NCBI GenBank assembly: GCA_003671075.1
Contig: QWPT01000013.1
Coordinates: 1 to 45,049, forward strand
Direction of reading: 5' to 3'
DNA length: 45,049 nt
Source: Planctomycetota bacterium
Lineage (GTDB): Bacteria > Planctomycetota > Phycisphaerae > Phycisphaerales > SM1A02
Part shown: in pieces, positions 11,475-45,049 of the stretch
Layout: the number at the start of each line of letters is the position of its first letter
Numbering within the stretch: the first letter of the stretch is position 1
Notes under the pieces: generated by a model
What the model was told of the DNA's origin: nothing
Seen by the model: the letters and a program-made list of their open reading frames with translations, nothing else
Databases searched by the model: none
Translations under genes and position numbers: made by a program

Positions 11475-13172
11475 TCACCACTCGGGTCCGCCCGAATAGC
11501 GGCCATACACATCGGCCATCGCCTGAACCTGCTCGCCGAGCGTGCAGCGCACCAACGACGCCGCCACCAGCGAAGGCATCACATTCTCGCCCTTGCGCGC
11601 GGCGGTGCGAATCGCAGTGAGCGCGCGCTTGACCTCGTCGTTCGAACGCGATGCGCGCATCTTGGCCAGGCGCGCGTTCTGCTCGGTTTCGACCGCGTGC
11701 GGAATTTCGAGGATCTCGACCTGCTTCTCGTCGTTGCCGTCGGTGTAAGCATTCATGCCGACAACGATGCGGTCGCCCGCCTCCATCTCCTGGCCGAAGC
11801 GGTAGCTGGCCTCGGCGATCGAGCGGCGGAAGTAGCCCTTGTGAACGCCCGCCACCACGCCGCCGATGTCGTCAATTTCCTTGATGATCGCGTTGGCGTC
11901 CTTCTCCATCTGGTCGGTCAGCGCCTCGACAAACCACGACCCGCCCAGCGGATCGACGGTGCGATGCACGCCCGACTCATGCGCGATGATCTGCTGCGTT
12001 CGCAACGCAACCCGCACCGCCTGCTCGGTGGGAAGACCGAGCGTCTCGTCCATCGAATCGGTGTGAAGACTCTGGCAACCGCCAAGCACGCCCGCCATCG
12101 CCTGCAGCGCAACGCGCACGATGTTGTTGAGCGGCTGCTGCTCGGTCAGCGAGCAACCCGCAGTTTGCACATGGGTGCGCATGAGCAGCGATCGCTCGTT
12201 CTTGGCGCCGTAGCGCTCCTTCATCGCCTTCGCCCAAATGCGGCGAGCGGCGCGAAGCTTGCAGATTTCCTCGAAGAACTCGTTGTGGCTGTTGAAGAAG
12301 AACGACAACCTCGGCGCAAAGCCATCGACATCGAGGCCGCGCTTGATGCACTCCTCGACATACTCCATGCCGTCGCGCAGCGTAAACGCGAGCTCCTGCG
12401 TGGCGTTCGAACCCGCCTCGCGAATGTGGTAGCCCGAAATGGAAACCGAGTTCCACTTGGGCAGATGCAGCGATGCAAATTCGATGGTGTCGACCACCAA
12501 CTTCACATGCGGCTCGGGCGGATAGATGAACTCGTTCTGCGCATGGAACTCCTTGAGGATGTCGTTCTGCAGCGTGCCGCCGAGCGCCGTCCACGGAATG
12601 TTGCGCTCCTGCGCGTGCGCGAGATACATGCCCCAAATCACGGCCGCGGGCGCATTAATCGTCTGCGACACCGTGACCTCACCAACAGGAATGTCGGCGT
12701 AAAGACGGTGCATGTCCTCGATCGACGCGATGGCGACGCCGCAGCGGCCAACCTCGCCCGCCGAGAGCGCGTCGTCGGAATCGCGACCCATGAGCGTGGG
12801 CAGATCGAACGCTGTCGAAAGGCCAGTGTTGGCCTTGGTTCCCTTGGCGTTCTCGAGCAGATACTTGAAGCGCTTGTTGGTGTCGTCGGCCGAGCCGAAG
12901 CCCGCAAACTGACGCATGGTCCAAAGCCGCGAGCGGTACATCGTCTTGTGCACGCCGCGCGTGAACGGATACTCGCCGGCCTCGCCGATGCGCGCATGCG
13001 CCTTGGACGGATCGGTGGGATCCTGCGTGACAACGCTGTCGGGGCCGTAGCGTTCGCCAACGGCGTAGCCCGAGATCGTGACCGTCTCGGGATCAATGCG
13101 GGCCGACTCCGGCTTGGAGGCGTTGCTCTTGCTGTGCGGGCTGTTGGCGGCGTGGGTGTTCGCGGTGCTCAT
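11475..13172 (-). CDS. B12-dependent acyl-CoA mutase large subunit, isobutyryl-CoA mutase-like
   Basis: Catalytic TIM-barrel subunit of the methylmalonyl-CoA mutase superfamily; 565 residues, the size of IcmA-type subunits that bind a separate small B12 subunit. No B12-binding domain (DxHxxG) is fused or encoded in this window. The superfamily stretches WTMRQFAGFG, SGYHIREAG, FAPRLSFFF and DPLGGSW are present. Two pocket positions separate substrates in studied enzymes: methylmalonyl-CoA mutase has Tyr89 and Arg207, isobutyryl-CoA mutase has Phe and Gln. Here they are Phe89 (RQFAGF) and Gln212 (AQNEFIYPP), as in isobutyryl-CoA mutase. The ATG at 13172 is chosen because it gives the family N-terminus; the open frame runs further upstream with unlikely sequence. 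A possible -10 TATTCT lies at 13214-13219. Confidence 0.85.
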   Translation of the reverse strand: MSTANTHAANSPHSKSNASKPESARIDPETVTISGYAVGERYGPDSVVTQDPTDPSKAHARIGEAGEYPFTRGVHKTMYRSRLWTMRQFAGFGSADDTNKRFKYLLENAKGTKANTGLSTAFDLPTLMGRDSDDALSAGEVGRCGVAIASIEDMHRLYADIPVGEVTVSQTINAPAAVIWGMYLAHAQERNIPWTALGGTLQNDILKEFHAQNEFIYPPEPHVKLVVDTIEFASLHLPKWNSVSISGYHIREAGSNATQELAFTLRDGMEYVEECIKRGLDVDGFAPRLSFFFNSHNEFFEEICKLRAARRIWAKAMKERYGAKNERSLLMRTHVQTAGCSLTEQQPLNNIVRVALQAMAGVLGGCQSLHTDSMDETLGLPTEQAVRVALRTQQIIAHESGVHRTVDPLGGSWFVEALTDQMEKDANAIIKEIDDIGGVVAGVHKGYFRRSIAEASYRFGQEMEAGDRIVVGMNAYTDGNDEKQVEILEIPHAVETEQNARLAKMRASRSNDEVKRALTAIRTAARKGENVMPSLVAASLVRCTLGEQVQAMADVYGRYSGGPEW

Positions 13173-13320
13173 CTGCAATTGGTCCTGCGCTGCGCGCTGT
13201 TTCGGAACGAGGGAGAATAGCACTTCTCGCTCAGATATCGGCGCGAAACGGCTGTCGTCGGCGCGCGAAATGTCTGTAGATAACCCGCGGTTCGCGCCAT
13301 GCACCGCCCCGCTCCTTCGC

Positions 13321-13326
13321 CATAAT
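13321..13326 (+). promoter_or_regulatory. Candidate -10 box of the Hhe-like gene
   Basis: CATAAT, one mismatch from TATAAT, lies 6 bases before the ATG at 13333, with no Shine-Dalgarno. I see no clear -35. The 160-base gap 13173-13332 also serves the divergent mutase gene. Confidence 0.45.
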
Positions 13327-13332
13327 GGGCTC

Positions 13333-16300
13333 ATGAGCGAACCATCGAATGAAGGCGTGCCCCGCGCCGCGGATCTGGTCATTGATGCCGCAAGCACCAC
13401 CGCCGCATCGCTCGAACAGAACGGAATTCCCTGCGTCCGCACCGTGACCGTGAGCGCGTTCGAACGACTGCACGCAACCACGCTGTGCATCAACATCGAG
13501 AACGAAGCCGCGGTCCGCTACGAGCGCGGCCTGGAAACCATCCCCGAAGCAACTTCGCTCGCGGTCGATGTTTCTGATTTCATTGTTCCACTGCCCATTC
13601 TGCGCCGCTCGAGTGAACGCGAGCCGATCGACCTCACCGCGACCCTCGTCGACTCGACGGGCCGCGTGGTCGCAACCGCACGCCATCGCCTCATCGTCGT
13701 GCCCGCTTCGCACTGGTGCGGACTCGCCAACGCACCGGAATCGCTGGCGTCGTTCGTCACTCCAAACACGCCAGCGTTGCGAGAACTTCTGCTGGCCGCG
13801 TCAGCGCGTTTGCAGCAAAGCACGGGAAATGGCGCGCTCGACGGCTATCTCTCCAAGAGCGCCGAGCGGACGCAGTTGATCGCCGAAGCCTGCTACCAAT
13901 CGCTCGCCGAACGCGGGATCGTCTACATCGTTGCGCAGCCCAGCTTCGAGGAACAGGGACAGAAGGTCCGCAACGCCGCCGAAGTTCTTGCCGATGGCGC
14001 AGGGAATTGCCTGGATCTCTCGGTCACGCTCGCGGCCATTCTTGAAGCCGCCGGCCTTGCGCCCGCGATCGCCATCGGCGACGGGCACGCCGTCGTCAGC
14101 TTCGCCACCACCGACGACCAATTCTCCGATGCGATACACGAAGGCGCATCGCGCATGGCCAATCGCATTGAACTGGGCGAGTATCGCGCGATCGAATCAA
14201 CGGGCGCGTGCTCCGAGCGCTGTTCATTTTCGCAAGCGTTGACTGAAGGCGAGCGCTTCGTGCGCGAGGCTTCCGAAAGTATGCGCGTGCTCGATGTGCG
14301 CGCGGCGCGGCGTTCGGGAATTCATCCGCTTCCCGATTTACTCGACGCCAAGCAAGGCGCTTCGCTGGACACTCGCCGCCCCGTAAAAAACACGCCGTGG
14401 AAAGTGGTGCAGCCCACCGCCCTTCCGCCGCTTCCCAAAGTCAACCGCACGCGCAGCCAAGAGCGACTCGATGATTGGCAGAAGCGTCTGCTTGATCTGA
14501 CCCTGCGCAACCGGCTGCTCAATGACCGCGAAAAACTCGGCATTCCGCTGATGATCGCCGGCGACGAACCGCTGGCGCATCTTGAGAACCTTCTCTGGAA
14601 CGAGAAGCCGATGAAGTTGGTCGCGCGCGGTTCGACGCGGCTCACCACCGAAAATGTTGCGGCGCAGGCTCGCGCTCGCAGCGAGAACGAGTTCGACGCC
14701 GCAGGAATGATCGCCGAGCTCAACCGCTCCTGGCTGCGCTCGACGCTTGATGAAGGCGAACTTTTCAACCGAGCCACCAAGGCGTTTCGCGAAGCCAAGA
14801 GTTCGCTGGAAGAAACCGGCGCGCGCTCGCTCTACATCGCCATCGGCTTTCTCGAGTTCCGCGTTGAACCGCGTGACACGCCCGTGCAGGCGCCGCTGCT
14901 GTTGGTGCCGATGGAAATGCAACGTATCTCGCGAAGCGAGGGATTTCGCCTGACTCCCGTTGCCGAAGAAACCGTGCCCAATGTGGCGTTGGTCGAGTAT
15001 CTCCGCAGTGAATACAGTCTTGATATCGACATCGCCGGTGCCATCAGCGACGACGAACACGGCGTCGATGTACCCGCACTGCTCGCACGAGTGCGCAAAA
15101 TGGTGAGCGATGTCAAGGGCGCGCGCGTCGTTTCAGCAGCAAAGCTAGGTAACTACTCGTTCAAGAAATTGCCGCTGTTCCAAGAGATGCGCAAGAACGC
15201 CAAGAAGCTTGTGGAACATCCCGTGGTGAGCACGCTGATTGGCCGCGAACGATCAAAGTCCATTCCGAACAAGCCGCTGATCACCGCCGATGAAATCGAT
15301 GCGGGCGCGCCCTTCACCACCGTGCGGCTGCCGCTGGCCGCGGATTCATCGCAGATCGCTGCAATTTGCTCGGCGGTCAGCGGCGCGACCTTTGTGCTGC
15401 AAGGTCCGCCAGGAACTGGCAAGAGCCAGACCATCACCAATCTGCTTTGCGAAAGCCTCGCGCAAGGAAAGCGCGTGCTCTTCATTGCCGAAAAGAGCGC
15501 GGCGCTTGATGTGGTGAGCGATCGACTCAACAAGGCCGGACTCGGTTGCTTTGCTCTCGATCTGCACGCTGACCACGCAACCAAGACTGCGTTTGTTGCG
15601 CAGGTGAAACGCGCCTTCGACGCGCTTGACGCGCGCGCGGCACCGGGATCGCGCAAGTTCGACACCATTGCTGCGGGGCTTGACCGCTCGCGCGCCCGAC
15701 TGGCTTCGGCCTGCAGCGCGTTGCACGACTCGCGCGGCGACGCCATGACCGCGCACCACGCGATCGAGCGCATCGCGGAGATCAGCGATGCCACCAACGC
15801 ATCGATGCGCGCGCAAGAGGGCGCGTTGGCAACGGCGCTCGACGGCGTTCTGCCCGTGCAAGCAACTGAAGACAGCGTGCATGCGCGACTGACCGCCGTC
15901 GCCACGCTCGCCAACGCCATCGACGAATATCCTGGCGCAATTGCCTGCCCCATCGCTGATTTTTCCCCTTCTACCTTGCTCAACGCCGATCAGGCCGCGC
16001 AGTTTGGTCGCGCTGCTGGTGAGGCAAGCGCGCACATCGCCGCGAGTGAAGCCGCTGGTGCGCAACTCGCGCTCATGATCGGCGCCACGCCGCCGCGCAC
16101 GTTCGCGGGTCTAACCGAACTGCTGAAAATTGCGCGCACACTCGCCATCGACGCGCCCGGTGCAGGATTCCTTGTTGAATGCGCGCTTGCCGCTGATCAC
16201 GCCAAACGCCTGGCGCTGGTAAAAAAGACACTCGACGAATGCGCGCGTGCCGAGCAAGCCGAAACGGAATTGGCGAAGTCATACGACCGCGCGGTCCTTG

Positions 16301-18633
16301 AACTTCCGTTGGTATCGATGGTGGGCGATTTGCGCGCCACTCGCGAGAAGTTCGTGCTCTTTCGTTGGCTCGCCGCCCGCAAGGCGCGCGCATCGCTGCT
16401 GCGCCTCGCAAAAAGCCCGCCTCCGAGCGGACACGATGCGGTGTTGAGTGAAACCGAGCGCGTGCTCGCGTTGAGCGTGACCATCCTCACCGCGCAGCCG
16501 CACAAAGAAAGCGTTGCCCGCTACGCAAGCGCCGACGAGTCGGCCGTTGATTTCGCCGCGACTGAACAAACGCTCACTCGCGCGCGCCTCACCGCCGACA
16601 CGATTCGTGCTTCCTTTCCCAAGGAAGCCGCGCTCATCGCCATCCAAGCGCCCAAGGTGGTTGGTCAACCTGCGTTGCGCGCCGCGACCGACGCTCTCAG
16701 CGCCCCGCTCGACAAGCTCAAGCCCGTGCTGGCAAACATCGATCGCATGCTTTCGCCGCTTCCGCCATTTTCTGCGGCAAATCCCAGTGCCAGCAACGCC
16801 GACACCGCCACCATGCGTGAGCGTCTCGACCGCGCCGCCACCCACGCCGCGGACTTTCCTGCTTGGAGCGCGTGCACGGTTGCGCGTGCGCAGGCAACGG
16901 CGCTCGGACTCGAGAGCATTGCGAAAGCCATGCTCGGCGCAACGCTTCCCACCTACAACGCGCAACGGGTTACCGAGTCCGCGCTCCTCACCGCCTGGAC
17001 GCGTGCGCGCCTGCGTGATGAAGCTCCATTGGCTGATTGCGGCGTCGACAAAATGGATCTTCTGCGCCGGGACTTTCTCGCCGCCATCGCCGAGTATCGC
17101 AAGGGTGCAGCCGCAGCCGTGGCGACCCTGGTCCGCGATCGCGCGCGCGTGCTGTTCACCGCCGACAACGACGATGCCATGCGCAGCGCGCTGCGCACCC
17201 TTCAAGAACTGCGCGCACTCACCACCATTCGCCGCCCCATCCGTCGGGTGATGCTCGAAGGCGCGCCCGCAATCATCGCGCTCATGCCCATCGTGCTGGC
17301 CAGTCCCCTCTCGGCAAGCACGCTTCTTGCGCCGGAATTCCCTGCATTTGACCTCGTGGTCTTCGATGAAGCCTCGCAGATTCCCGTGTGGGATGCGGCT
17401 TGTGCGATCTCGCGCGGCAAGGCCAGCGTGATCGTCGGTGATTCCAAGCAGCTTCCGCCCACAAACTTCTTTGACCGCAAAGACTCACCCTCCGACGACT
17501 CCGACGCTGAAGGCGATCTCGGCAACCAACTTGAAAATCTCGAGAGCGTGCTCGACGAGTCCATCGCCGCGGGATTTGGTTCTCTCTCGCTGAACTGGCA
17601 CTACCGCTCGCGCGACGAGCGTCTGATTGAGTTTGCCAATCGCAAAAGTTATGGCGGAACGCTGCAGACCTTCCCCGCTTCTCACCGCGCCCATCCCAAT
17701 CTCGGCGTCGAATTCCGCTTTGTTGGCGGCATTTACGACCGCGGAAATACCGCGACCAATCGCATCGAGGCGGTGGCGGTGGTGGCGGAGCTCACGCGCC
17801 GGCTGCTTGATGATGATGCCTGCACCGCCAATCGCTCGCTCGGCGTGGTGACTTTCAGTCAGGCGCAGCAGACGCTGGTGCAGGATCTGCTCGACGAGGC
17901 TGTTGACAAGGATGGCAAGCTTCGCGAGCGCATGGCCGAGGCGGCAAAGCTCGGCGAAGAGGTCTTCGTTAAAAACCTCGAGAATGTGCAGGGCGATGAG
18001 CGCGCGACCATGCTGTTTTCCATCTGCTACGGCCGCGATGCCAACGGCGTGATGTATCACAACTTCGGCCCGCTCAACCTCGCTGGTGGCGAGCGGCGTT
18101 TGAATGTCGCCGTCACGCGCGCGCGAGAAAAGATCGTGCTCTTCACATCGATTCGTTCGAGCGATCTCGATCCAGCCAAGTGCAACAAGGCCGGCGCACA
18201 GCATCTGCGCGAATACCTCGCCTACGCGGAGTTGGGCGTCATTCCTTCGACGAGCGGTTCGCGCGACACTCCGCGCGAAGTCGATGTCAGTGCCATCGAG
18301 AGCGCGATCAAAGACGCGCTCGAAAGCCGCGGCTGGCGCGTCGATTTGCATGTCGGTCGTTCACGCGACTATCGCGTGAGTTTGGCGCTTGCGCACAAGT
18401 CTGCGCACACGTCTGCGCACACGTCTGCGCCCGAACGCTGGGTGCTCGGCGTTGAACTCGATGGCGCGTTCTACGCCGCGGCGCCCTCGGTCATCGACCG
18501 AGAAACCGTGCGCGACGGCGTGCTCAAATCGTTGGATTGGCGCATTCTGAAAGTGTCTTGCGTCGACTGGTTGCGCGATCCGAGCAAAGTCATCGAACGC
18601 ATCGATGCCGCAGCGCGTGCGCCGAAAGTTTGA
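13333..18633 (+). CDS. Hhe-like giant protein: transglutaminase-like, DUF4011, SF1 helicase, Vsr/MTES-type nuclease remnant
   Basis: A 1766-residue protein. A transglutaminase-like segment has Cys226 (GNCLDLS) and His252 (GDGHAVV). DUF4011 begins near residue 379 with WQKRLLDLTLRNRLLN. A superfamily 1 helicase follows: Walker A GPPGTGKS (691-698), Walker B DEAS (about 1345-1348), motif III GDSKQLPP, motif IV region NWHYRSRDE, motif VI NVAVTRAREK (about 1590). The C-terminus (1650-1760) resembles Vsr/MTES_1575-type endonucleases: GVELDGAFY and LDWRILKVSCVDW. This order matches Hhe (DUF4011-helicase-Vsr), described as a single-gene anti-phage system. In the nuclease part the usual catalytic Asp of the YRIDLAV-type strand reads Ser1683 (YRVSLAL), followed by a short Ala-His-Thr-Ser repeat, so cleavage activity is doubtful. 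The ATG at 13333 is chosen for its -10 box and plausible N-terminus. Defence role is inferred. Confidence 0.85.
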   Translation: MSEPSNEGVPRAADLVIDAASTTAASLEQNGIPCVRTVTVSAFERLHATTLCINIENEAAVRYERGLETIPEATSLAVDVSDFIVPLPILRRSSEREPIDLTATLVDSTGRVVATARHRLIVVPASHWCGLANAPESLASFVTPNTPALRELLLAASARLQQSTGNGALDGYLSKSAERTQLIAEACYQSLAERGIVYIVAQPSFEEQGQKVRNAAEVLADGAGNCLDLSVTLAAILEAAGLAPAIAIGDGHAVVSFATTDDQFSDAIHEGASRMANRIELGEYRAIESTGACSERCSFSQALTEGERFVREASESMRVLDVRAARRSGIHPLPDLLDAKQGASLDTRRPVKNTPWKVVQPTALPPLPKVNRTRSQERLDDWQKRLLDLTLRNRLLNDREKLGIPLMIAGDEPLAHLENLLWNEKPMKLVARGSTRLTTENVAAQARARSENEFDAAGMIAELNRSWLRSTLDEGELFNRATKAFREAKSSLEETGARSLYIAIGFLEFRVEPRDTPVQAPLLLVPMEMQRISRSEGFRLTPVAEETVPNVALVEYLRSEYSLDIDIAGAISDDEHGVDVPALLARVRKMVSDVKGARVVSAAKLGNYSFKKLPLFQEMRKNAKKLVEHPVVSTLIGRERSKSIPNKPLITADEIDAGAPFTTVRLPLAADSSQIAAICSAVSGATFVLQGPPGTGKSQTITNLLCESLAQGKRVLFIAEKSAALDVVSDRLNKAGLGCFALDLHADHATKTAFVAQVKRAFDALDARAAPGSRKFDTIAAGLDRSRARLASACSALHDSRGDAMTAHHAIERIAEISDATNASMRAQEGALATALDGVLPVQATEDSVHARLTAVATLANAIDEYPGAIACPIADFSPSTLLNADQAAQFGRAAGEASAHIAASEAAGAQLALMIGATPPRTFAGLTELLKIARTLAIDAPGAGFLVECALAADHAKRLALVKKTLDECARAEQAETELAKSYDRAVLELPLVSMVGDLRATREKFVLFRWLAARKARASLLRLAKSPPPSGHDAVLSETERVLALSVTILTAQPHKESVARYASADESAVDFAATEQTLTRARLTADTIRASFPKEAALIAIQAPKVVGQPALRAATDALSAPLDKLKPVLANIDRMLSPLPPFSAANPSASNADTATMRERLDRAATHAADFPAWSACTVARAQATALGLESIAKAMLGATLPTYNAQRVTESALLTAWTRARLRDEAPLADCGVDKMDLLRRDFLAAIAEYRKGAAAAVATLVRDRARVLFTADNDDAMRSALRTLQELRALTTIRRPIRRVMLEGAPAIIALMPIVLASPLSASTLLAPEFPAFDLVVFDEASQIPVWDAACAISRGKASVIVGDSKQLPPTNFFDRKDSPSDDSDAEGDLGNQLENLESVLDESIAAGFGSLSLNWHYRSRDERLIEFANRKSYGGTLQTFPASHRAHPNLGVEFRFVGGIYDRGNTATNRIEAVAVVAELTRRLLDDDACTANRSLGVVTFSQAQQTLVQDLLDEAVDKDGKLRERMAEAAKLGEEVFVKNLENVQGDERATMLFSICYGRDANGVMYHNFGPLNLAGGERRLNVAVTRAREKIVLFTSIRSSDLDPAKCNKAGAQHLREYLAYAELGVIPSTSGSRDTPREVDVSAIESAIKDALESRGWRVDLHVGRSRDYRVSLALAHKSAHTSAHTSAPERWVLGVELDGAFYAAAPSVIDRETVRDGVLKSLDWRILKVSCVDWLRDPSKVIERIDAAARAPKV
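18391..18426 (+). repeat. Three 12-bp tandem repeats inside the Hhe-like gene
   Basis: Three in-frame copies of GCGCACACGTCT (the first with one change) encode Ala-His-Thr/Lys-Ser repeats. They fall between the two core strands of the C-terminal nuclease domain. Confidence 0.85.
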
Positions 18634-25111: not shown

Positions 25112-26476
25112 ATGCTCATCGAGTCCGCATCTACCCTGATTCGGGTGGCAATTGCCGCCACCTGCGTGATGCTTGGAGATTCGGATCCGCTGGCGAATTG
25201 CGCGACTGGCGCGGCTTCGACGCACGCTTCAACCAACGCAGTGACATGGACGCCGGGCACCGAGGTTCGCTCAAAGCACTATCGCATTCTCAGCGATCTC
25301 GGCGTCGACGACACCCGCATCTACTCCACGCATCTCGACCTGATTTACGAGGAGTACGCGCGACGACTGTCGAGTCTCGCACAGCGCGCGCCCGAAGTTC
25401 CGTTCGTGCTCATGTTCGCCAAGGAGCAGGATTACATCGCTGAGTTGCGTAAGCGCTACGGAGTGAACGCAATCGGCAGCGGTGGCATGTTCTTCATCAC
25501 CAGCGAAGGGGCAGCGCTCGCGTTTTTTACGGAAAGTCTGCCGCGCTCGCGCGTGTTTCATGTGCTCCAGCACGAGGGATTTCATCAGTACGCCTACAGC
25601 CGATTTGTCGGCGCGCTTTCGCCGTGGCTGAACGAGGGGCTCGCTGAATATTTTGGCGAGGCGGTGGTGATCGATGGCCGCGTGATCGTCGGCCAGGCCA
25701 GCCCCGGTCCCGTCGAGCGGATCAAGAAGGCGATCGACGCAAACACCACCATCGACTTTCTTCGGCTGCTGACAATGACCAGCGAAGCGTGGAACGACAA
25801 TGTTCGCACTGGCGATGCATCGATCCAATACATGCAGTCTTGGTCGATGGTCCAGTTTCTGAGTTGGGCGGAAAATGGTCGGTATCGCGGGGCTTTCGAG
25901 GGATATCTGCAACTCATTCACTCCGGCGTTCCCAGCGAGCGCGCCTTCGTGCAGGCGTTTCAGACCAACGACTTGAAGAGCTTTGAAAACACTTGGAAGC
26001 AGTGGGCGCTCAAGACCACGCCGTCCTCGCTCGGCACCGCTGCGCTACGACTGACCTTTCTGGCCGAGGGACTGGTTGCCCTCTCGCGCGATGGCGTGAA
26101 GGTCGAATCGCTTGACGACCTACTTGCGAAATTGCGCGATCGAAACTTCTCCACCGAAGTGAGCGTGCACGGTCGCACCGAGAAGATGGAAGCGAACGAG
26201 ACGATCTTGGTGATTCCCAAAGACGAGCTCGCCGATGCGCAGCCCGTGTTCGACATGATCGTGCCCAAGCCTGCGCGGTCCACCGCCAACGACAAGAAGC
26301 GCGAGGCCGACCATCCGACCCCGCCGACGATCACGACGCGCGGACTCGAGCCGCGCGAACTGGTGTTGAAATGGACGCGACGAAAGTCGGGCGAGTTCGA
26401 CTACGAAATTCTCTCGCCCAAGAAGGCACCGCCCGCGGCGAAAGAGCCGAAGAAACCTGCGAAAGACAAAGCCTGA
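25112..26476 (+). CDS. Exported gluzincin-type protein with HExxH (DUF1570-like)
   Basis: A 454-residue protein. A hydrophobic N-terminus (about residues 6-25) suggests export. HEGFH at 154-158 is a zinc site, and Glu175 in WLNEGLAEYFGEA is the likely third ligand. The C-terminal 130 residues are charged and repeat-poor, with a Lys/Pro/Ala tail (KAPPAAKEPKKPAKDKA). It shares the catalytic layout with the protein at 2132-3583. It lies 40 bases upstream of an ECF sigma factor and a membrane kinase on the same strand, so it may be part of that signalling unit. Proteolytic activity is inferred from the motif only. Confidence 0.75.
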   Translation: MLIESASTLIRVAIAATCVMLGDSDPLANCATGAASTHASTNAVTWTPGTEVRSKHYRILSDLGVDDTRIYSTHLDLIYEEYARRLSSLAQRAPEVPFVLMFAKEQDYIAELRKRYGVNAIGSGGMFFITSEGAALAFFTESLPRSRVFHVLQHEGFHQYAYSRFVGALSPWLNEGLAEYFGEAVVIDGRVIVGQASPGPVERIKKAIDANTTIDFLRLLTMTSEAWNDNVRTGDASIQYMQSWSMVQFLSWAENGRYRGAFEGYLQLIHSGVPSERAFVQAFQTNDLKSFENTWKQWALKTTPSSLGTAALRLTFLAEGLVALSRDGVKVESLDDLLAKLRDRNFSTEVSVHGRTEKMEANETILVIPKDELADAQPVFDMIVPKPARSTANDKKREADHPTPPTITTRGLEPRELVLKWTRRKSGEFDYEILSPKKAPPAAKEPKKPAKDKA

Positions 26477-26516
26477 GTTCCCGAAGTCCCGCGCCGTGAG
26501 CGCGATCCAGACCACC

Positions 26517-27284
26517 ATGCACCAAGTTGACACCGCCTTCCTCCGACGGCTGCGCGCGCGTGATGAGCGCGCGTGGTTTGAACTGTGGGAAGCGTTCGGG
26601 CCCGTGGTGCGCGGAACGCTCTACCGATGGGGTAACGGCCGCCTCGGCGAGGAAACGCTGCGCGACCTGACCCAAGACACGCTCGCGGCGCTCACCGATT
26701 CCATCGAGCGTTTCGATCCGCAACGCGGCGTGCGCTTCTCGACCTGGCTGCTGGCGATCGCCAAGCATGTGCTCGGCGACGAGATGGACCGGCGCTATGC
26801 GTTGAAGCGCGGCGCGGGAAAGCGTGGCGCGAGCCTCGATGATTCGTGGATGGGGCAGTCGCGCGAACCGCAACCCGATGCGATCTATGAGCGCAGGGTG
26901 ATGTCGGCCAAGGTGCACTCCGCCATTCGCTGCGCACAGAAACGCTCGGAATTCGTGCATTTTGAGGCGTATCGCCTGCGCGTGCTCGAGAGCCGCAGCG
27001 GCCGCGAAATCGGCGTGCTGCTTGGCGTGAGCGAGCCGACGGTCACGCGCCACTGCCAGCGGGTGCGCGATGTGCTGCGCGAGGAATTGCGCAACGCCAT
27101 CGAACAATGGAGCTTTACCGAGGACGAGCGCGCCGAGCCGGTACGCGCGGGGCTCGCGGTTGAGGATGCGTTGTTCGATGAAGCGCTCGGCGAAATCTGG
27201 CGCGCGCAAGAAGAGATCCTTGCGCTCGACCTGAGGGCGCAGATGGCGGCGCGCGACCGCGACCCCAAGCGGGGCCAGGCGTGA
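26517..27284 (+). CDS. ECF-type RNA polymerase sigma factor
   Basis: A 255-residue sigma-70 family protein of the extracytoplasmic-function type. Region 2 includes LTQDTLAALTDSIERFDP and FSTWLLAIAKHVLGDEMDRR (about residues 45-90). Region 4 carries the helix-turn-helix EIGVLLGVSEPTVTRHCQRV (about 161-180). A C-terminal extension of about 60 residues beyond region 4 could carry control. No anti-sigma factor gene is next to it; instead its stop overlaps the start of a membrane kinase gene. That matches the planctomycete ECF groups paired with Ser/Thr kinases. A GTG at 26496 would add seven residues; I prefer the ATG, but neither has a good ribosome-binding site. Confidence 0.85.
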   Translation: MHQVDTAFLRRLRARDERAWFELWEAFGPVVRGTLYRWGNGRLGEETLRDLTQDTLAALTDSIERFDPQRGVRFSTWLLAIAKHVLGDEMDRRYALKRGAGKRGASLDDSWMGQSREPQPDAIYERRVMSAKVHSAIRCAQKRSEFVHFEAYRLRVLESRSGREIGVLLGVSEPTVTRHCQRVRDVLREELRNAIEQWSFTEDERAEPVRAGLAVEDALFDEALGEIWRAQEEILALDLRAQMAARDRDPKRGQA

Positions 27285-28882
27285 ACGGAGCTGGCTGGAC
27301 GCTCACCATTCTCGGCGTGATTGCTGCCAGCGCGGCGCTGATCGCCGCCGGACTTGCGGTCGGGCGCCTCGGCATCCTGGGCGGAATCTTCGGCGCGCAC
27401 CTCGCCCGCTGCTTCAAGCAGATTGGCCGCGAGTTCGTGCACTTCATCGGCGCGATGGCCGTCGCCCTGCTGCTTCTACCCATCGCGTTGGCGCGCATGG
27501 TGTTGCTGAAGCCCGCCGCCGCGCGAGAGGCGTTGCAGTCGAGCGGGCGCGAGTTGCGAAACGCGTTCATCGCGCTGTACGCGCTGCTGGTGGTGCAACC
27601 TCTGCGACTCCTTGGACTGCGCGCAGTGCTCAGCTACATCGAATCGCGCTTGCCCGCGGCGATGACCGGCACCGATGCGACACTCGATCACCAGAACGGT
27701 TCGCCGCGCAGCGCACGGGCCGAGTTTGTTGGCTACACGGTTCTGCGCGAACTGCAACGCGGCGGCTCGGGCGCGCGGCTCTATGTGTGCGAGCCCGACG
27801 CGCGCACGCGCATCAAGATCGGCATCGCCGACGGCTATGTGGTGATCAAGAGTTTTGACTTCGACGACGGCACCCGACTTGCCGAAATTCTGCGGGAATC
27901 ACGCTCGCTCGATGCCGCGCGCAAACTCGGACTTGTGCTCGACCACGACAGTTCGGAGCGGCGGTTTCACTATGTGATGCGCTACTACGAGGGTTTAGAC
28001 CTCGGCAAATTCACTCGGCGGCTGCACGAAACCGCCGGCGCCGATGGCCTCGATCGCGAGCGCTTGGTGATGGTGACGGCGCTGGTGCGCGACCTGGTGG
28101 CAACGCTGCGCGACTGGCATGCGGCGGGCCTTTGGCACAAAGATGTGAAGCCGGAGAATGTGATCGTTCTCGACGGGCGCGCAACGCTCATCGACCTCGG
28201 TCTGGTGACGCCGCTCGCGTCACAGATGACGCTGACCACGCACGGAACTGAGTATTTTCGCGATCCAGAACTGGTGCGCGAGGCTCTGCGCGGAGCACGA
28301 GTGTCGGAGGTCGACGCCGCGCGCTTTGACATCTACGGAGCGGGCGCGGTGCTGCACTTCGTTCTCGAAGGAACCTTCCCCGCCCACGGCGTTCTGAGCG
28401 GATTTCGCAAGCCCAGCCCCGAGAGCCTGCGCTGGATCGCTCGGCGTGCGATGGCGGATTTTCAACGGCGCTACGGCAGCGCCGAGGAGATGCTGCGTGA
28501 CCTCGACAGCGCCATCGCTGGCGGCGATCCATCGGCGGTGCGGCCAGCGGATCTCCCTTCCATGGCGCAACAGCGCGCCGATGACGCGCAAATCGAGCAT
28601 ATTGCGGCGATTTCCGCCGCCGCCGAAGCAGCGCCGCTCTCACCGCCAATCTCTCCGCCGCCACCGCCAGACTCGCGCACCAACGAACGGCTGAGGATCC
28701 GCGTGACTGATTGGTGGAGAGGAACCTACGAAATGGTTTCGGTGCGACCGTTGCCCGCGGCGATTCCCGCGCAGCAAAAGCGTGGAATCGGTCCGCCGCT
28801 CGCGGTGCTGGTGGCGGCGTTGTTCGCACTCGCAGTGATCGCAGTGATCTGGGCTTGGCTCGGCGCGAGCATCGCCACCTAA
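27281..28882 (+). CDS. Membrane-anchored Hanks-type Ser/Thr protein kinase
   Basis: A 533-residue protein. Two or three hydrophobic segments lie at the N-terminus (about residues 6-33, 50-72 and 88-108), the kinase domain at about 145-425, then a Pro-rich linker and a C-terminal transmembrane helix (about 507-529). Kinase residues are Lys190 (VVIKSF), the catalytic loop HKDVKPEN (286-293, Asp288) and metal-binding DLG (305-307). All three key residues are kept, so activity is likely, though HKD replaces HRD and DLG replaces DFG. No large extracellular sensor is present. The GTG start overlaps the sigma factor stop (GTGA), so the two are co-translated. I infer that it phosphorylates or otherwise controls the sigma factor. 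Confidence 0.85.
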   Translation: MNGAGWTLTILGVIAASAALIAAGLAVGRLGILGGIFGAHLARCFKQIGREFVHFIGAMAVALLLLPIALARMVLLKPAAAREALQSSGRELRNAFIALYALLVVQPLRLLGLRAVLSYIESRLPAAMTGTDATLDHQNGSPRSARAEFVGYTVLRELQRGGSGARLYVCEPDARTRIKIGIADGYVVIKSFDFDDGTRLAEILRESRSLDAARKLGLVLDHDSSERRFHYVMRYYEGLDLGKFTRRLHETAGADGLDRERLVMVTALVRDLVATLRDWHAAGLWHKDVKPENVIVLDGRATLIDLGLVTPLASQMTLTTHGTEYFRDPELVREALRGARVSEVDAARFDIYGAGAVLHFVLEGTFPAHGVLSGFRKPSPESLRWIARRAMADFQRRYGSAEEMLRDLDSAIAGGDPSAVRPADLPSMAQQRADDAQIEHIAAISAAAEAAPLSPPISPPPPPDSRTNERLRIRVTDWWRGTYEMVSVRPLPAAIPAQQKRGIGPPLAVLVAALFALAVIAVIWAWLGASIAT

Positions 28883-40655: not shown

Positions 40656-40742
40656 CGAATTTCCGCCTTCGAGCCGATCCAACCCAAAATGGCGGCGCTC
40701 GACCTCCTTCGAGCGCAGGCCTTGGCCTACGACGATCGCCCG

Positions 40743-41372
40743 ATGAAGACCTTCTTCCAATTCGCCTCGAACGCCGTGCCTCTGCTGGCAAGACTCCTAC
40801 TTTGCCTAGCGTTTTTGCCCTCGGGCTGGCACCACGCGATGAACTGGACCGAGTTCCAGGGCACCGAAGCCCAGCGCCTTCGGGAGTTGGGCGTGGCCTC
40901 GGCGGTGACCCATGTTGCCAACGAAACCACGGTGCAATTGAAGGGGGAGCCCCAGCCCACCTCGCCCACGGAGTTCACCGCGGTTCTGCAGGCGCGCTCG
41001 CTCCACGAGCTCACGCTCGAGTTCGACGCCAAGGGCATGCCTCGGCCGTTCATTGCGGCGTGGACGATCTCGGTGATTGAATTGCTCGGCGGCGCAATGC
41101 TGCTGATCGGGCTGTTCAGCCGGATTTGGGCCGCGGGAATCGCCTTCTGGGCCATCGCGCTTTTCGGGCTTTCTGGGCTGATACAGAACGGTTTGTGGAA
41201 CGACCTCTGGACCACCACCGCTGCAGCGCGCGCGAGCACGCTCGGACTGTTGACCATTGCGACGCTGGCGCTGGGAATCGTCTTCAAGGGCGCGGGATCG
41301 TTCAGCCTTGACGCCATGATCTTCCGCCGCGGCGCGGGCAAAGACGGCGGCGGCAAGAGCGACGGCAAGTAG
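40743..41372 (+). CDS. DoxX-like membrane protein
   Basis: A 209-residue protein with about four hydrophobic helices and the DoxX/DoxD layout: first helix LLARLLLCLAFLPSGWHH (about residues 14-31), a periplasmic loop of about 70 residues, second helix region ISVIELLGGAMLLIGLF, third AAGIAFWAIALFGLSG, and a last one GLLTIATLALGIVF. It ends in a charged Gly/Lys tail. DoxX proteins are linked to thiosulfate oxidation or redox stress in some bacteria, but most are uncharacterised. A TACGAC/GACGAT stretch at 40728-40736 may be its -10 region, though it is less clean than others. The ATG at 40743 is preferred over one at 40689, which would overlap it. Confidence 0.75.
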   Translation: MKTFFQFASNAVPLLARLLLCLAFLPSGWHHAMNWTEFQGTEAQRLRELGVASAVTHVANETTVQLKGEPQPTSPTEFTAVLQARSLHELTLEFDAKGMPRPFIAAWTISVIELLGGAMLLIGLFSRIWAAGIAFWAIALFGLSGLIQNGLWNDLWTTTAAARASTLGLLTIATLALGIVFKGAGSFSLDAMIFRRGAGKDGGGKSDGK

Positions 41373-41434: not shown

Positions 41435-41440
41435 TACGAT
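41435..41440 (+). promoter_or_regulatory. Candidate -10 box of the VWA-ExbB-ExbD operon
   Basis: TACGAT ends 7 bases before the ATG at 41448. This decides between several in-frame starts (TTG 41391, ATG 41406, ATG 41439, ATG 41448). Confidence 0.45.
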
Positions 41441-41447
41441 GCGCGCC

Positions 41448-42584
41448 ATGACGCACGGGACCGCCAAACAGCGCACGCAGATGGGAAGCAGCCTCGGGGC
41501 GCGCTCCACGACGCGGGGTCGAGACGGCAAGGCGCGGCGAACGGCGGCGCGGGGCGTGCTGATTTCGCTGGTGGTTCACGGCGCGATTGCTGCGGCGATT
41601 CTCGGCACGGCGTGGGGCGTGGCTGGCGTTGCGGGCATGGGCAGGAACACTGCTCCCGTGGTCTTCACCGCTGACTTCTTCGATCCTGCGCCGAGTTTGC
41701 CGCAGGATCCGCGCGCGCGATCGGTCGCTGCTGCTGAAACTCCGCCGCAAACATCAGTAGACGAGATCCCTCCAGACGAAACCTCCCGCGACCTTGCCGC
41801 GCGGCTGCGTGAGCTTGAACTTTCCAGCACGCACAATCCTGAATTGGACGCTTTGGCGCGGCGCTTCGGCGCCCTCAGCGGGAAGGCGGGTGGGAAGGTG
41901 GACGCGAGTGGTGGCGCGAACGGTGGCGCGAACGAGGATCTAGGCGCGCTCAACGCCTCCCCCGCTTCTGGCGCGCGCGTCGGCGCCAGTTTCGCTGGAC
42001 TTGTCGCCGGCAACGCCACCAAGGTCGCCTATGTCATCGATGCCTCGGGCTCGATGATCGGCAGCTTTCCCGCCATGATCGACGAGGTCGAGCGATCGCT
42101 CATGCGCCTCGAGCCAACGCAGTCGTTCAGCGTTGTCTGCTTCCGCAAAGACGGCGCGCTTGCGTTCGGCGGCGAGGCGGCGTTGCGGCCGGCGAGCAAG
42201 GCTGCGCGTGTGGCGGCGGTGCGTTGGCTGCGCGAAACGGTGGTTCCCGCAGGCAGGTCGAGTCCGTTGCAGGCGTTGGCGATGGCGCTGGCAACGGGCG
42301 CAAACTGCGTCTTTCTGCTTTCAACGACGGTGACGGGCCCGAGTAGCCACGAACTCGACCGCGCATCGATGTTGGCGTTACTCGACCGCATCAATCCGCG
42401 CGACGGCGATGGCGGCCCGAGGCGTGCAACCATCCAGTGCATCCAATTTCTCGAACCTGACCCAGGCCAAACTCTGCAGGCAATCGCCGCTGAGCATTTC
42501 GGCGAAGGCGGCTATCGCTTCATTCCCCGCAGCGCGACTTCGCTCGACGCGGCCAACACACCAAACGACGGAGCTCGGCGATGA
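41448..42584 (+). CDS. TonB-like anchored protein with a periplasmic von Willebrand A domain
   Basis: A 378-residue protein. A basic cytoplasmic N-terminus (about 35 residues, many Arg/Lys) leads to a transmembrane helix reading LISLVVHGAIAAAILG (about 37-52). The Ser-x3-His-Gly-Ala spacing is that of the TonB anchor (S16/H20), which contacts ExbB/ExbD. After the helix come a Pro/Asp-rich stretch and a linker, then a VWA domain from about 190 with the metal site DASGS (198-202). The end of the domain lacks the usual TDG motif (LLSTTVTGP). It overlaps the ExbB gene by ATGA, so it appears to be the energised partner in place of TonB or TolA. Its periplasmic target is unknown. Confidence 0.78.
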   Translation: MTHGTAKQRTQMGSSLGARSTTRGRDGKARRTAARGVLISLVVHGAIAAAILGTAWGVAGVAGMGRNTAPVVFTADFFDPAPSLPQDPRARSVAAAETPPQTSVDEIPPDETSRDLAARLRELELSSTHNPELDALARRFGALSGKAGGKVDASGGANGGANEDLGALNASPASGARVGASFAGLVAGNATKVAYVIDASGSMIGSFPAMIDEVERSLMRLEPTQSFSVVCFRKDGALAFGGEAALRPASKAARVAAVRWLRETVVPAGRSSPLQALAMALATGANCVFLLSTTVTGPSSHELDRASMLALLDRINPRDGDGGPRRATIQCIQFLEPDPGQTLQAIAAEHFGEGGYRFIPRSATSLDAANTPNDGARR

Positions 42585-43240
42585 ACGGCAGCATCTTTTT
42601 CTACTCGCTCAACGGTAATGGATCGTTCGAATGGATCGGCAGCATGATGATTTGGCTGCTGCTGCTGCTGTCGGTGGCGAATGTGGTGTTGATCATCATC
42701 GGCGCCAACGAGAATGCGCGGAGATCGCAGTTGCCCGACCGTGCGGCCATCGACATGAGCGAGTTGATTTCCGCGGGGCGATATCAGGATGCAATCAAGC
42801 GAGCGGCCGCCGGCGAAGACGACTTCTCCCGCATTCTCTCGCGCGGACTCGAGCACGCGCCTGATGGCGTCGAGGCGATGACGCACGCGGCCGAGCAGAC
42901 TGCCGACGATCTGCTTGCGGCGCGATTGCGCGGACTTGAGCGACTGAATGTGCTTGGTCAGGTCGCGCCCATGATTGGACTTTTCGGCACGGTGTACGGA
43001 ATGATCGTTGCCTTTCAGACCATCGCTTCAACTGGCGGCGCCGCTGATCCAGCGATGCTCGCTGGTGGAATCGGCACTGCATTGGTGACCACATTTTGGG
43101 GATTGCTCATCGCCATTCCCGCAACCAGCGCCTACGCGTTGCTGCGCAATCGCACCATCGCCATCTCCGACCAAGCGCTCGCACAGGTCGACGATCTGCT
43201 TGCGATGTTCCGACCGAAGCAAGACGCGGGCAACAAGTAA
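42581..43240 (+). CDS. ExbB/TolQ/MotA-family proton channel subunit
   Basis: A 219-residue protein with three transmembrane helices: about 19-40, then a cytoplasmic region (about 45-120), then 125-146 and 160-185. The last two carry the family signatures APMIGLFGTVYGMI and GIGTALVTTFWGLLIAIP. In ExbB/TolQ complexes a pentamer forms around two ExbD/TolR chains and uses the proton gradient to drive a periplasmic partner. The start overlaps the upstream VWA gene stop (ATGA), and the next gene begins right after the stop. Confidence 0.88.
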   Translation: MNGSIFFYSLNGNGSFEWIGSMMIWLLLLLSVANVVLIIIGANENARRSQLPDRAAIDMSELISAGRYQDAIKRAAAGEDDFSRILSRGLEHAPDGVEAMTHAAEQTADDLLAARLRGLERLNVLGQVAPMIGLFGTVYGMIVAFQTIASTGGAADPAMLAGGIGTALVTTFWGLLIAIPATSAYALLRNRTIAISDQALAQVDDLLAMFRPKQDAGNK

Positions 43241-43765
43241 ATGGCGCGGCGGCGAGGGCACTTTCCCAACGCGGAAGTCGAGGCGAACCTCACGCCGATG
43301 ATCGATGTCTCGTTTTTGTTAATCATTTTCTTTGTGTTAGTCTCGCGCATTGGCGACGCTGAGCAGGCGGAACTTGCGGTGCCGATGGTGCGCGCAGGTG
43401 CGGCGGTGCGCGCTGAGGACGACGGGCGCGTGGTGCTGAATGTTGTTCCCGGCGTCGACGGCGCGAGTGCGGGATATCAGCTTGGCTCGACGATGTTCGA
43501 AGCGACGCCCGCGGGAATCGCCGAAATGGCCGAGGCGATTGCTGAGGGTTACCGCAGGAATTCGAACCTTGCGGTGCGACTGCGCGCTGATCGCTCCACG
43601 CGCTACCAATGGGTTGAACCGGCGATGCGCGCGGTTTCAACGGCGGCGCGTTTGGCTGGCGGCGGCGCGCTGCCACGACTTGATCTCGTGGTGGAAGAGC
43701 GCATCGAGCCGCTGGAAACGGGCACAAACAAGGCAAGTGGCGGAGGCTCGCGCAATGGCTCGTGA
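43241..43765 (+). CDS. ExbD/TolR-family protein 1
   Basis: A 174-residue protein. A short cytoplasmic N-terminus, the conserved NLTPMIDVSFLLIIFFVL helix with proton-carrying Asp22, then a periplasmic domain ending in a Gly/Ser-rich tail. Two TTA codons and several AT-rich codons cluster in the helix, which is unusual next to the GC-rich surroundings. It starts directly after the ExbB stop with no gap and overlaps the next ExbD gene by 11 bases. Confidence 0.88.
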   Translation: MARRRGHFPNAEVEANLTPMIDVSFLLIIFFVLVSRIGDAEQAELAVPMVRAGAAVRAEDDGRVVLNVVPGVDGASAGYQLGSTMFEATPAGIAEMAEAIAEGYRRNSNLAVRLRADRSTRYQWVEPAMRAVSTAARLAGGGALPRLDLVVEERIEPLETGTNKASGGGSRNGS

Positions 43766-44276
43766 ACACCGTCACCAACGACACGCCAATCCCGGACGCG
43801 CGCGGTTGCTGCTGTCGATCACGCCGATGATCGATGTGGTGTTTCTGCTGCTCATCTATTTCCTGCTGACCACGGGCTTCGCCTCGACTGAACGACTCTT
43901 GCGCGCGGAGGGAACGCGCGAGCAGGCAGCGCGCGAGATCGATGCCAAGAATGATCGTGCCCACGAAGAGGCGCTTGCTCTCGAAGCCGATCCGTTGGTG
44001 ATCGAGCTCGCGCGTGTGAACGGCACCACTCGCATCACGCTGTCGGGTGGACTCACGCAACCGAGCGACGCTGCGGCGCAAGATGGAACGGCGCAACTCG
44101 AGCGCATCCTGCGCGATGCGCTGCTGACGCGCGATCGACCGCAGGGATTGTTCGAAGCCGACCACCCAATTCGAATCGCACCCGCGCGCGATGTGCCGTG
44201 GGAGGATGTGGTCGGCGCGTTTAACGCGGTGGTGCGCGCGGGATATCGCGCCGTTGCTTTCGGAGGTGGCTCATGA
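43755..44276 (+). CDS. ExbD/TolR-family protein 2
   Basis: A 173-residue protein with the helix SITPMIDVVFLLLIYFLL (Asp27), then a periplasmic domain containing coiled-coil-like AREIDAKNDRAHEE and the strand-helix unit PIRIAPARDVPWEDVV typical of ExbD/TolR. It differs clearly from ExbD 1, so the two may form a heterodimer. GGAGG lies upstream of the ATG at 43755, inside the end of ExbD 1. The stop overlaps the next start (ATGA). Confidence 0.87.
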   Translation: MAREHRHQRHANPGRARLLLSITPMIDVVFLLLIYFLLTTGFASTERLLRAEGTREQAAREIDAKNDRAHEEALALEADPLVIELARVNGTTRITLSGGLTQPSDAAAQDGTAQLERILRDALLTRDRPQGLFEADHPIRIAPARDVPWEDVVGAFNAVVRAGYRAVAFGGGS

Positions 44277-45049
44277 TGGGCGTGCGCGCGGCGACCATAC
44301 TTTTGCGCGTGCTTTCGCGCGTGCCGTTGCGTACGCCGTTGCGCGTGCTTTCATGCGCGCTTTCGTGCGCGGGATCGTCGCTTGCGCAGGCGAGTGAAAT
44401 TCAAACGGGCCGCGAGCAGCAAACGGGGACCATCGGCACGGATGCGACGCGCGCCGACGCGGGTGATCGCGCGCTGAAGATGTTTCGCCAGTTGCGCAGC
44501 GATGAGATTGCGGGAAATCTCGCTGCATTGACGGCGGCGGCGGCGGCGGACGCGGGCGCGGGCGCGGACGCGGACGCGGACGCGAAACATGATGATTGGG
44601 CGCAGAGGCGCGCGGGGCTCGGTCGCGATGCGGTGATCGCTCGCAATGCAGCGAAAAGCGGCGCTGGCGCGCGCGCCGCCGAGGAACACATCGATCAGAT
44701 GCGCGCGGCATTGGCGGCGCAGATCGCTGCCGACGATCCAGCGTGCGCGCGCGAACTCGTGCTTGAATGCGCGGAAGATTTGCTGCTGCGGATGATCACC
44801 GCCGATGCAAGCGATGCGATGCTGGCGATCGGCCTGCCGACACCGCAAGAAATCGCACGAGTGCGCGCGGTTGTGCTTGTTGCCCGCGCGCGGCTGGCGT
44901 CGGAATTGCTTGCGCCCGCATGCGCGCCCACCGCCGATGTGGCGACTGACGCGATTGTGTTTCGCACGCGTTTCCTGGCCGGAATCGCAGCGCTGTGCGC
45001 GGCGGACGCAGATGAGTGCGCGCGGCGAGCGCTGGACCCTGCGTTGGCC
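44273..45049 (+). CDS. Exported protein of the ExbB/ExbD operon (3' end cut)
   Basis: The frame stays open to the window end (259 codons). The N-terminus has a long hydrophobic, Leu/Val-rich signal peptide with repeated RVLS/RTPL, ending near ALSCAGSSLAQA. A low-complexity Ala/Asp/Gly tract (about residues 85-105, from a GCGGAC-type repeat) follows; the rest is Ala/Arg-rich and mostly helical. I do not recognise a family. The ATG at 44273 overlaps the ExbD 2 stop and has GGAGG upstream. It may be the periplasmic partner of the complex. Confidence 0.65.
   Translation, partial: MMGVRAATILLRVLSRVPLRTPLRVLSCALSCAGSSLAQASEIQTGREQQTGTIGTDATRADAGDRALKMFRQLRSDEIAGNLAALTAAAAADAGAGADADADAKHDDWAQRRAGLGRDAVIARNAAKSGAGARAAEEHIDQMRAALAAQIAADDPACARELVLECAEDLLLRMITADASDAMLAIGLPTPQEIARVRAVVLVARARLASELLAPACAPTADVATDAIVFRTRFLAGIAALCAADADECARRALDPALA

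Follow-up and report, generated by a model that had tools for sequence, protein, structure and literature searches.

We analyzed a 45,049-nucleotide stretch of a planctomycete genome (the window), in which the gene for a von Willebrand A (VWA) protein with a TonB-like anchor helix is followed by genes for ExbB, two ExbD proteins and a tetratricopeptide repeat (TPR)-like protein. The window comes from contig C19 of a draft genome (3.35 Mb, 97.6% complete), and coordinates refer to window numbering (1-45,049, + strand) unless another contig or locus is named. The VWA gene (41439..42584, +) encodes 381 residues when read from the ATG at 41439, which comparison with relatives makes the likeliest start. 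ATG 41406 and TTG 41391 are also in frame, whereas the start at 41435 given in an earlier, sequence-only reading of the same DNA is out of frame with this open reading frame (ORF). An ATGA common to stop and start joins the VWA gene to that of an ExbB/TolQ-like motor subunit (42581..43240, +; 219 residues). The gene for the first ExbD/TolR-like subunit (ExbD1; 43241..43765, +; 174 residues) abuts the ExbB gene (43240/43241) and overlaps by 11 nucleotides that for the second (ExbD2; 43755..44276, +; 173 residues). Another ATGA is common to the ExbD2 gene and the last gene, whose 5' part (44273..45049, +) belongs to a presumably exported, TPR-like alpha-solenoid protein and which continues on contig C19. 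The ORF map and Pfam confirm what the sequence-only reading had proposed, namely ExbB and then two unlike ExbDs in overlapping or adjoining genes after the VWA gene, and the exported protein that it placed last corresponds to an ORF from 44273 with a signal-like N-terminus, as judged by eye. A DoxX-family membrane protein (40689..41372, +, with ATG 40743 as the likelier start; PF07681, 2.6e-9, under the Pfam name DoxD) is encoded before the VWA gene, and a tRNA-Leu and an opposite-strand class II DAHP synthase lie upstream of the cluster. The next gene after the TPR-like protein encodes a CBS-domain protein (PF00571, 8.5e-10).

Motor subunits and anchor helix

ExbB matched the Pfam family MotA_ExbB (PF01618, 1.9e-27), and its comparison with PDB sequences gave TolQ chains at 8.5e-12. 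ExbD1 and ExbD2 both matched PF02472 (1.2e-14 and 8.9e-11, respectively) and are 19% identical to each other in alignment. Thr137 (42989-42991) and Thr171 (43091-43093) of ExbB are invariant in the alignment with E. coli ExbB and TolQ, as are Asp22 of ExbD1 (43304-43306) and Asp27 of ExbD2 (43833-43835) in that with E. coli ExbD and TolR. The pore threonines of ExbB and the proton-binding Asp of ExbD are called essential in a 2026 review (PMC12905483). The matches and residues support the assignment of a putative, complete proton-motor set encoded beside the VWA gene. We also considered anti-phage defense, for which the Zorya-like MotAB proteins offer the comparison; PADLOC gave no match for ExbB, ExbD1 and the VWA protein, the three proteins submitted (ExbD2 was not among them), and this candidate was rejected.

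In the AlphaFold2 model, the VWA protein starts with one long helix at the N-terminus, continues into a linker of low confidence and ends in a VWA domain modelled with high confidence. The predicted anchor helix (41523..41636, +), VLISLVVHGAIAAAIL, contains a Ser (Ser43 when counted from ATG 41439; 41565-41567) and a His (His47; 41577-41579), which together form Ser-x3-His. An alignment of 30 relatives shows the His in every sequence and the Ser four residues before it in at least 90%, in agreement with the TonB-like helix with Ser-x3-His that the sequence-only reading had recognized. We also used a larger set, the best 80 of 128 confirmed loci in the genome collection, some genomes of which are shared with the set of relatives. 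Ser-x3-His occurs in a hydrophobic segment in 78 of these 80 closest loci; the two exceptions are L152, an ORF cut at its 5' end, and L220, where no such segment was found. The pair is also present in 18 of the 20 best matches outside the order (one per genome, with ~6 kb flanks fetched).

A position matrix derived from 78 family helices was compared with 1950 decoy membrane segments (decoy maximum 5.7); the matrix is narrow, which restricts the test no less than the claim. The E. coli TonB helix scored 8.9, above all 1950 decoys. Ten TonB_C proteins from the own and related genomes were scored, those of 26 loci with a clear TonB frame by a simple ORF pick: one reached 13.4, above all decoys, and for eight further ones 15 to 1204 decoys stood at or above each. 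The helix of a paralogue on contig C26 of the same genome, described below, scored -9.3, with 345 of the 1950 decoys at or above it. Since E. coli TolA and the TonB of this genome fail to stand out from the decoys (scores in the Discussion), the likeness of the helix, in terms of sequence, is to TonB together with the Ser/His pair, and is no general match to all such anchors.

Linker and VWA domain

The linker (41637..41984, +; ~116 residues) is largely of low confidence in the AlphaFold2 model, with long runs at a predicted local distance difference test (pLDDT) score below 50 and two helices inside (model residues 118-134 and 139-147). The VWA domain (41985..42527, +), which like the protein as a whole was assigned from the model, Foldseek and alignment, has ten-residue mean pLDDT values of 85-98, apart from one loop at 63. 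The Foldseek matches listed for the domain were VWA or VWA-like (best 3.9e-10), and Pfam VWA models matched weakly (VWA_3 at 0.016, below its cut-off); we treat the VWA fold as a predicted one. A Pfam scan of the VWA protein listed up to E 1 gave no TonB C-terminal domain (PF03544), and no TolA-type C-terminal domain was matched in Pfam. Together with Foldseek, this upholds the claim that a VWA domain stands in place of the TonB or TolA C-terminal domain.

These results bear on ordinary Ton-type uptake, in which the VWA domain would replace the receptor-binding domain of TonB. The TonB-like helix with its Ser-x3-His and the ExbB/ExbD motor residues are shared with the Ton system. The sequence-only reading saw no TonB box or receptor nearby, a negative for which the search made here was limited to the Pfam scans. 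However, the VWA protein has no TonB_C domain, two ExbDs are encoded in the window, and the sole TonB_C match in the genome lies on contig C88 with an ExbB and ExbD of its own, so that uptake of this type is very improbable.

Of the motifs of the metal-ion-dependent adhesion site (MIDAS), the first, DxSGS, is kept (DASGS, 42039-42053), the Thr of the second is replaced by Ser, and the Asp position of the third is occupied by Thr (42324-42326; LLSTTVTG, as against FFLTDGE in the C26 paralogue). Of the 11 genus rows of the alignment, ten, the window protein among them, have Thr at the third-motif position and one has Ser; this position is variable across the 80 closest loci. DASGS was present in 72 of the 80 loci, a circular count, since YV[VI]DASGSM was the pattern with which the collection was scanned, and the 30-protein alignment was relied on instead. 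A standard metal site is probably missing from the window VWA domain. The metal-dependent adhesion proposed in the sequence-only reading was rejected, as it is unsupported once the last MIDAS Asp is replaced by Thr.

The state of this site also bears on a drive for surface adhesion or gliding, in which the VWA domain would be pulled as in the CglB/AglRQS system of Myxococcus. The subunit count, one MotA/TolQ-like and two MotB/TolR-like proteins, is that of AglR/AglQ/AglS (PMC9389320), a VWA protein is involved in both cases, and gliding is put forward as a possibility by Williams-Jones et al. (PMC12204202). In contrast, CglB is a surface adhesin according to the title of its paper, whereas the window VWA protein appears to be tied to the inner membrane rather than placed at the surface, and its MIDAS is degenerate; we regard such a drive as quite unlikely. 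Section 8 of PMC12204202 gives AglZ as the vWA-fold protein of Myxococcus gliding, whereas the title of the work cited there names CglB, an apparent slip.

Conservation and linkage across genomes

A homologue of the VWA protein was found in 29 of the 31 genomes drawn as relatives, the own genome included, and this conservation excludes chance as the origin of the arrangement. Within the genus, 14 of 16 genomes have a strong VWA match, and DoxX, VWA and ExbB occur together in all 13 loci fetched with flanks (own included in both counts). One or more of the ExbD, TPR and CBS matches are missing in L043, L044 and L053, and all three loci end at a contig edge. Among the 80 closest loci, ExbB lies downstream of VWA on the same strand in 68, and the ExbD matches downstream of VWA number two in 62 loci and one in three. 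ExbB is present in 50 of the 57 loci having at least 6 kb after VWA, and for two of the 12 loci without it less than 1.4 kb is available downstream. Three genomes of family f4 carry no motor in the stretch fetched around VWA but have an ExbB-ExbD-ExbD set elsewhere, which scores 259-263 against the family ExbB model; a second set in one of these genomes, beside a C26-type VWA, scores 163. In the phylum sample, the VWA model matched at E 1e-3 in 249 of 292 genomes, many of them over the VWA part alone.

Two tandem helix-VWA genes precede a single motor set in L057 (9662-12090) and L067 (8654-10815), of families f5 and f6, possibly providing two transducers per motor. Contig C26 of the genome studied here carries a second cluster (L040 4956-11583) in the order helix-VWA, small ORF, ExbB, ExbD, ExbD and large ORF. 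Its VWA is only distantly similar to that of the window (24.5 bits) and, unlike the window protein, has a canonical MIDAS end (LTDG).

A natural gap delimits the unit. Neither this VWA protein nor the TPR protein had a match in G012, a 98% complete genome of the same genus. The best ExbB of G012 is of the C26 type, at 90 bits, while the own gene in G000 scores 462. The four ExbD places of G012 comprise one beside TonB, two that belong to the C26-type system and one standing alone, the cognate pair being absent. In G012, the DoxX and CBS genes are both intact and lie side by side in a stretch free of N, and the borders of the gap match VWA-ExbB-ExbD-ExbD-TPR exactly. Because these five genes are jointly absent between an intact DoxX and an intact CBS gene, they behave as one unit, and the lack of the whole unit indicates that it is not essential in G012. 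In G014, the other genus genome without the VWA gene, the motor, TPR and CBS genes are present at a contig edge, and the absence may therefore be an assembly effect.

TPR-like protein

The remainder of the last gene, which the sequence-only reading had left to be found, was located on contig C19: the gene has 939 codons, from 44273 to contig position 47092, with a masked stretch inside. The L142 orthologue, which shares 45% identity with the own protein over the main match, was modelled as an all-helical solenoid of ~40 helices (pLDDT 84.6), and Foldseek with this predicted fold gave TPR and other helical-repeat structures. Pfam gave no match in the L042 orthologue; in the L056 and L067 counterparts, TPR models matched above their cut-off. 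A protein of ~320-360 residues with weak TPR matches is encoded between VWA and ExbB in L056 (7185-8138) and L067 (7498-8568); none is encoded between these genes in the window.

DoxX neighbor

DoxX lies within 400 bases before VWA in 72 of the 80 closest loci, and it adjoins VWA in 10 of the 12 loci with no ExbB nearby. As a synteny control, the unrelated neighbors DAHP synthase and ketoacyl synthase were counted in the 60 loci having at least 4 kb before VWA; the counts were 54 for DoxX, 47 for DAHP synthase and 38 for ketoacyl synthase. Since these unrelated genes are also kept nearby, the linkage of DoxX no longer serves as a simple proof of partnership. Of the 13 loci lacking both control genes, 11 have DoxX adjoining VWA and five have ExbB. 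The retention in 11 of 13 indicates that the linkage of DoxX exceeds regional inheritance, although as proof it falls short of what the raw count would imply. G012 retains DoxX in the absence of the motor, which suggests an independent role of some kind, and none of the 20 best loci outside the order had DoxX in the fetched flanks.

Other genes in the window

A 1851-residue protein encoded at 13078-18633 (+) combines DUF4011, helicase and MTES_1575 nuclease regions and matches PDC-S37 (2.7e-270) and Hhe (3.1e-117) in PADLOC, which makes it a candidate anti-phage defense protein. At 25112-28882 (+), the gene for a DUF1570 protein (25112-26476) lies close to that for a protein-kinase-domain protein (27281-28882) on one strand.

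Discussion

Williams-Jones et al. (2025; PMC12204202) described "vWA force transducers", with Planctomycetes among the hosts, as proteins made up of an SHLS-type helix, a disordered domain II of ~100 residues and a vWA C-terminal domain; their gene neighbors are given as a tolQ-like gene, a pair of unlike tolR-like genes and a TPR gene, and the paper states that no function is known. Judged by its sequence features, the window locus belongs to this published kind, in its helix-anchored (Tichowtungia type) form. The Ser/His helix, the disordered linker of ~100 residues, the vWA end, tolQ, the unlike tolR pair and the TPR gene are all shared. The window differs in that its VWA gene precedes the motor, whereas that paper places it often downstream in the PVC group, in an SHLS motif that is only half kept, and in the DoxX gene upstream and the CBS gene downstream, which do not figure in the paper's main text. 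It does not belong to the pore-helix vWA family of the same paper, which has no Ser/His motif, a proton-binding Asp and no exbD/tolR; the window has the motif and two ExbDs. In the literature from 2024 on, our search for vWA force transducers with TolQ found only PMC12204202, which the 2026 review (PMC12905483) cites with no mention of vWA. To the known kind the locus adds a bounded five-gene unit with a natural null, a degenerate metal site, the DoxX association, a CBS neighbor in the genus and a second, distant copy.

We consider it likely that the cluster is a system of this force-transducer kind, in which a proton motor would move a helix-docked VWA domain, with the TPR solenoid as its likeliest partner. 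ExbB, presumably a pentamer, and the two ExbDs, presumably a heterodimer, would form the proton-driven motor in the inner membrane. The Ser-x3-His helix of the VWA protein would dock on the edge of the ExbB ring; published AlphaFold3 complexes of relatives place the helix on the motor (PMC12204202). The disordered linker would then span part of the periplasm, and the motor would move or pull the VWA domain, for which the TPR-like solenoid would be the likeliest periplasmic partner. The architecture and the coupling to a motor are well supported by the gene and residue comparisons. The proton-driven complex of the sequence-only reading stands in so far as a TonB-type anchor, a VWA domain and conserved motor residues are encoded together, but the complex itself, its stoichiometry, the force and the partner are what we infer. 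Our best guess at the role is pulling on an envelope partner together with the TPR protein, with the outer membrane, peptidoglycan and the surface as candidate targets, and we would favor a task in envelope maintenance over nutrient import or gliding.

A narrower form of this interpretation is an envelope-stabilizing relative of Tol-Pal, with the VWA domain in the place of TolA and a TPR solenoid that is CpoB-like or anchoring, acting at division or at the outer membrane. The window ExbB is closest to TolQ among the sequences of solved structures, a periplasmic TPR-like gene is part of the unit, as E. coli tol-pal ends in cpoB, whose product has TPRs, and the one TonB_C protein found in the genome is encoded next to an ExbD. 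Against it, the VWA protein has no match to a TonB/TolA-type C-terminal domain, no TolB- or Pal-like gene was seen in the window cluster, the OmpA-domain had no match on contig C19 and two elsewhere in the genome (TolB was not searched for), and the whole unit is absent in G012. We view this form as possible, if doubtful.

Several results weigh against the force-transducer interpretation. The SHLS motif, Ser-3X-His-6X-Leu-3X-Ser (PMC12905483), is complete in many members, not all (PMC12204202), and the window protein keeps half of it: Ser and His are retained, Leu is replaced by Ile and the last Ser by Ala. The E. coli TolA helix scored -11.9 in the family matrix, a value that 552 of the 1950 decoys equalled or exceeded; as it did no better than ordinary helices, a kinship of the window helix with TolA was rejected. 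The own-genome TonB helix scored -8.1 (254 of 1950). The alignment with TonB/TolA anchors expected in the sequence-only reading thus held for E. coli TonB, but TolA and the own TonB fell among the decoys. In three genomes of family f2, a separate, unlinked ExbB is divergent (137-146 against the family model). Outside the order, ExbB and two ExbDs lie in the flanks of only eight of the 20 matches, so that the linkage foreseen for other planctomycetes is seen in 68 of the 80 closest loci but does not extend equally beyond them. The linkage counts are also partly inherited, because the whole region is syntenic (DAHP synthase in 47 of 60 loci), the G012 gap is one event in one draft genome, and our literature search found no experiments on any member.

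The loci outside the order bear in addition on the idea of a VWA protein that transmits no force and serves the motor as a static scaffold or a regulator, as a helix-VWA gene with no neighboring motor is common there (12 of 20). However, Ser-x3-His is kept in 10 of those 12 motorless loci and G012 lacks the entire unit, and we judge a purely static role unlikely.

Relatives of DoxX have redox- or quinone-linked roles, and in this group of planctomycetes DoxX could conceivably be an unrecognized partner with which helix-anchored VWA transducers work; the pulling protein would then be connected to a membrane protein that has such a role. The main text of PMC12204202 contains no occurrence of DoxX, DoxD, CBS or MIDAS. 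Our literature search found nothing joining DoxX, von Willebrand and Planctomycetes, and the literature on DoxX with ExbD, judged by title and listing, held no work on such a system; the association of DoxX with VWA transducers is possibly new.

For the family, the locus provides a pointer to a possible DoxX partner that is absent from the main text of PMC12204202, and a warning that this VWA domain is probably without a standard metal site. With a bounded unit, a natural null in G012 that keeps the flanking genes, and mutable residues, this class of transducers becomes open to testing.

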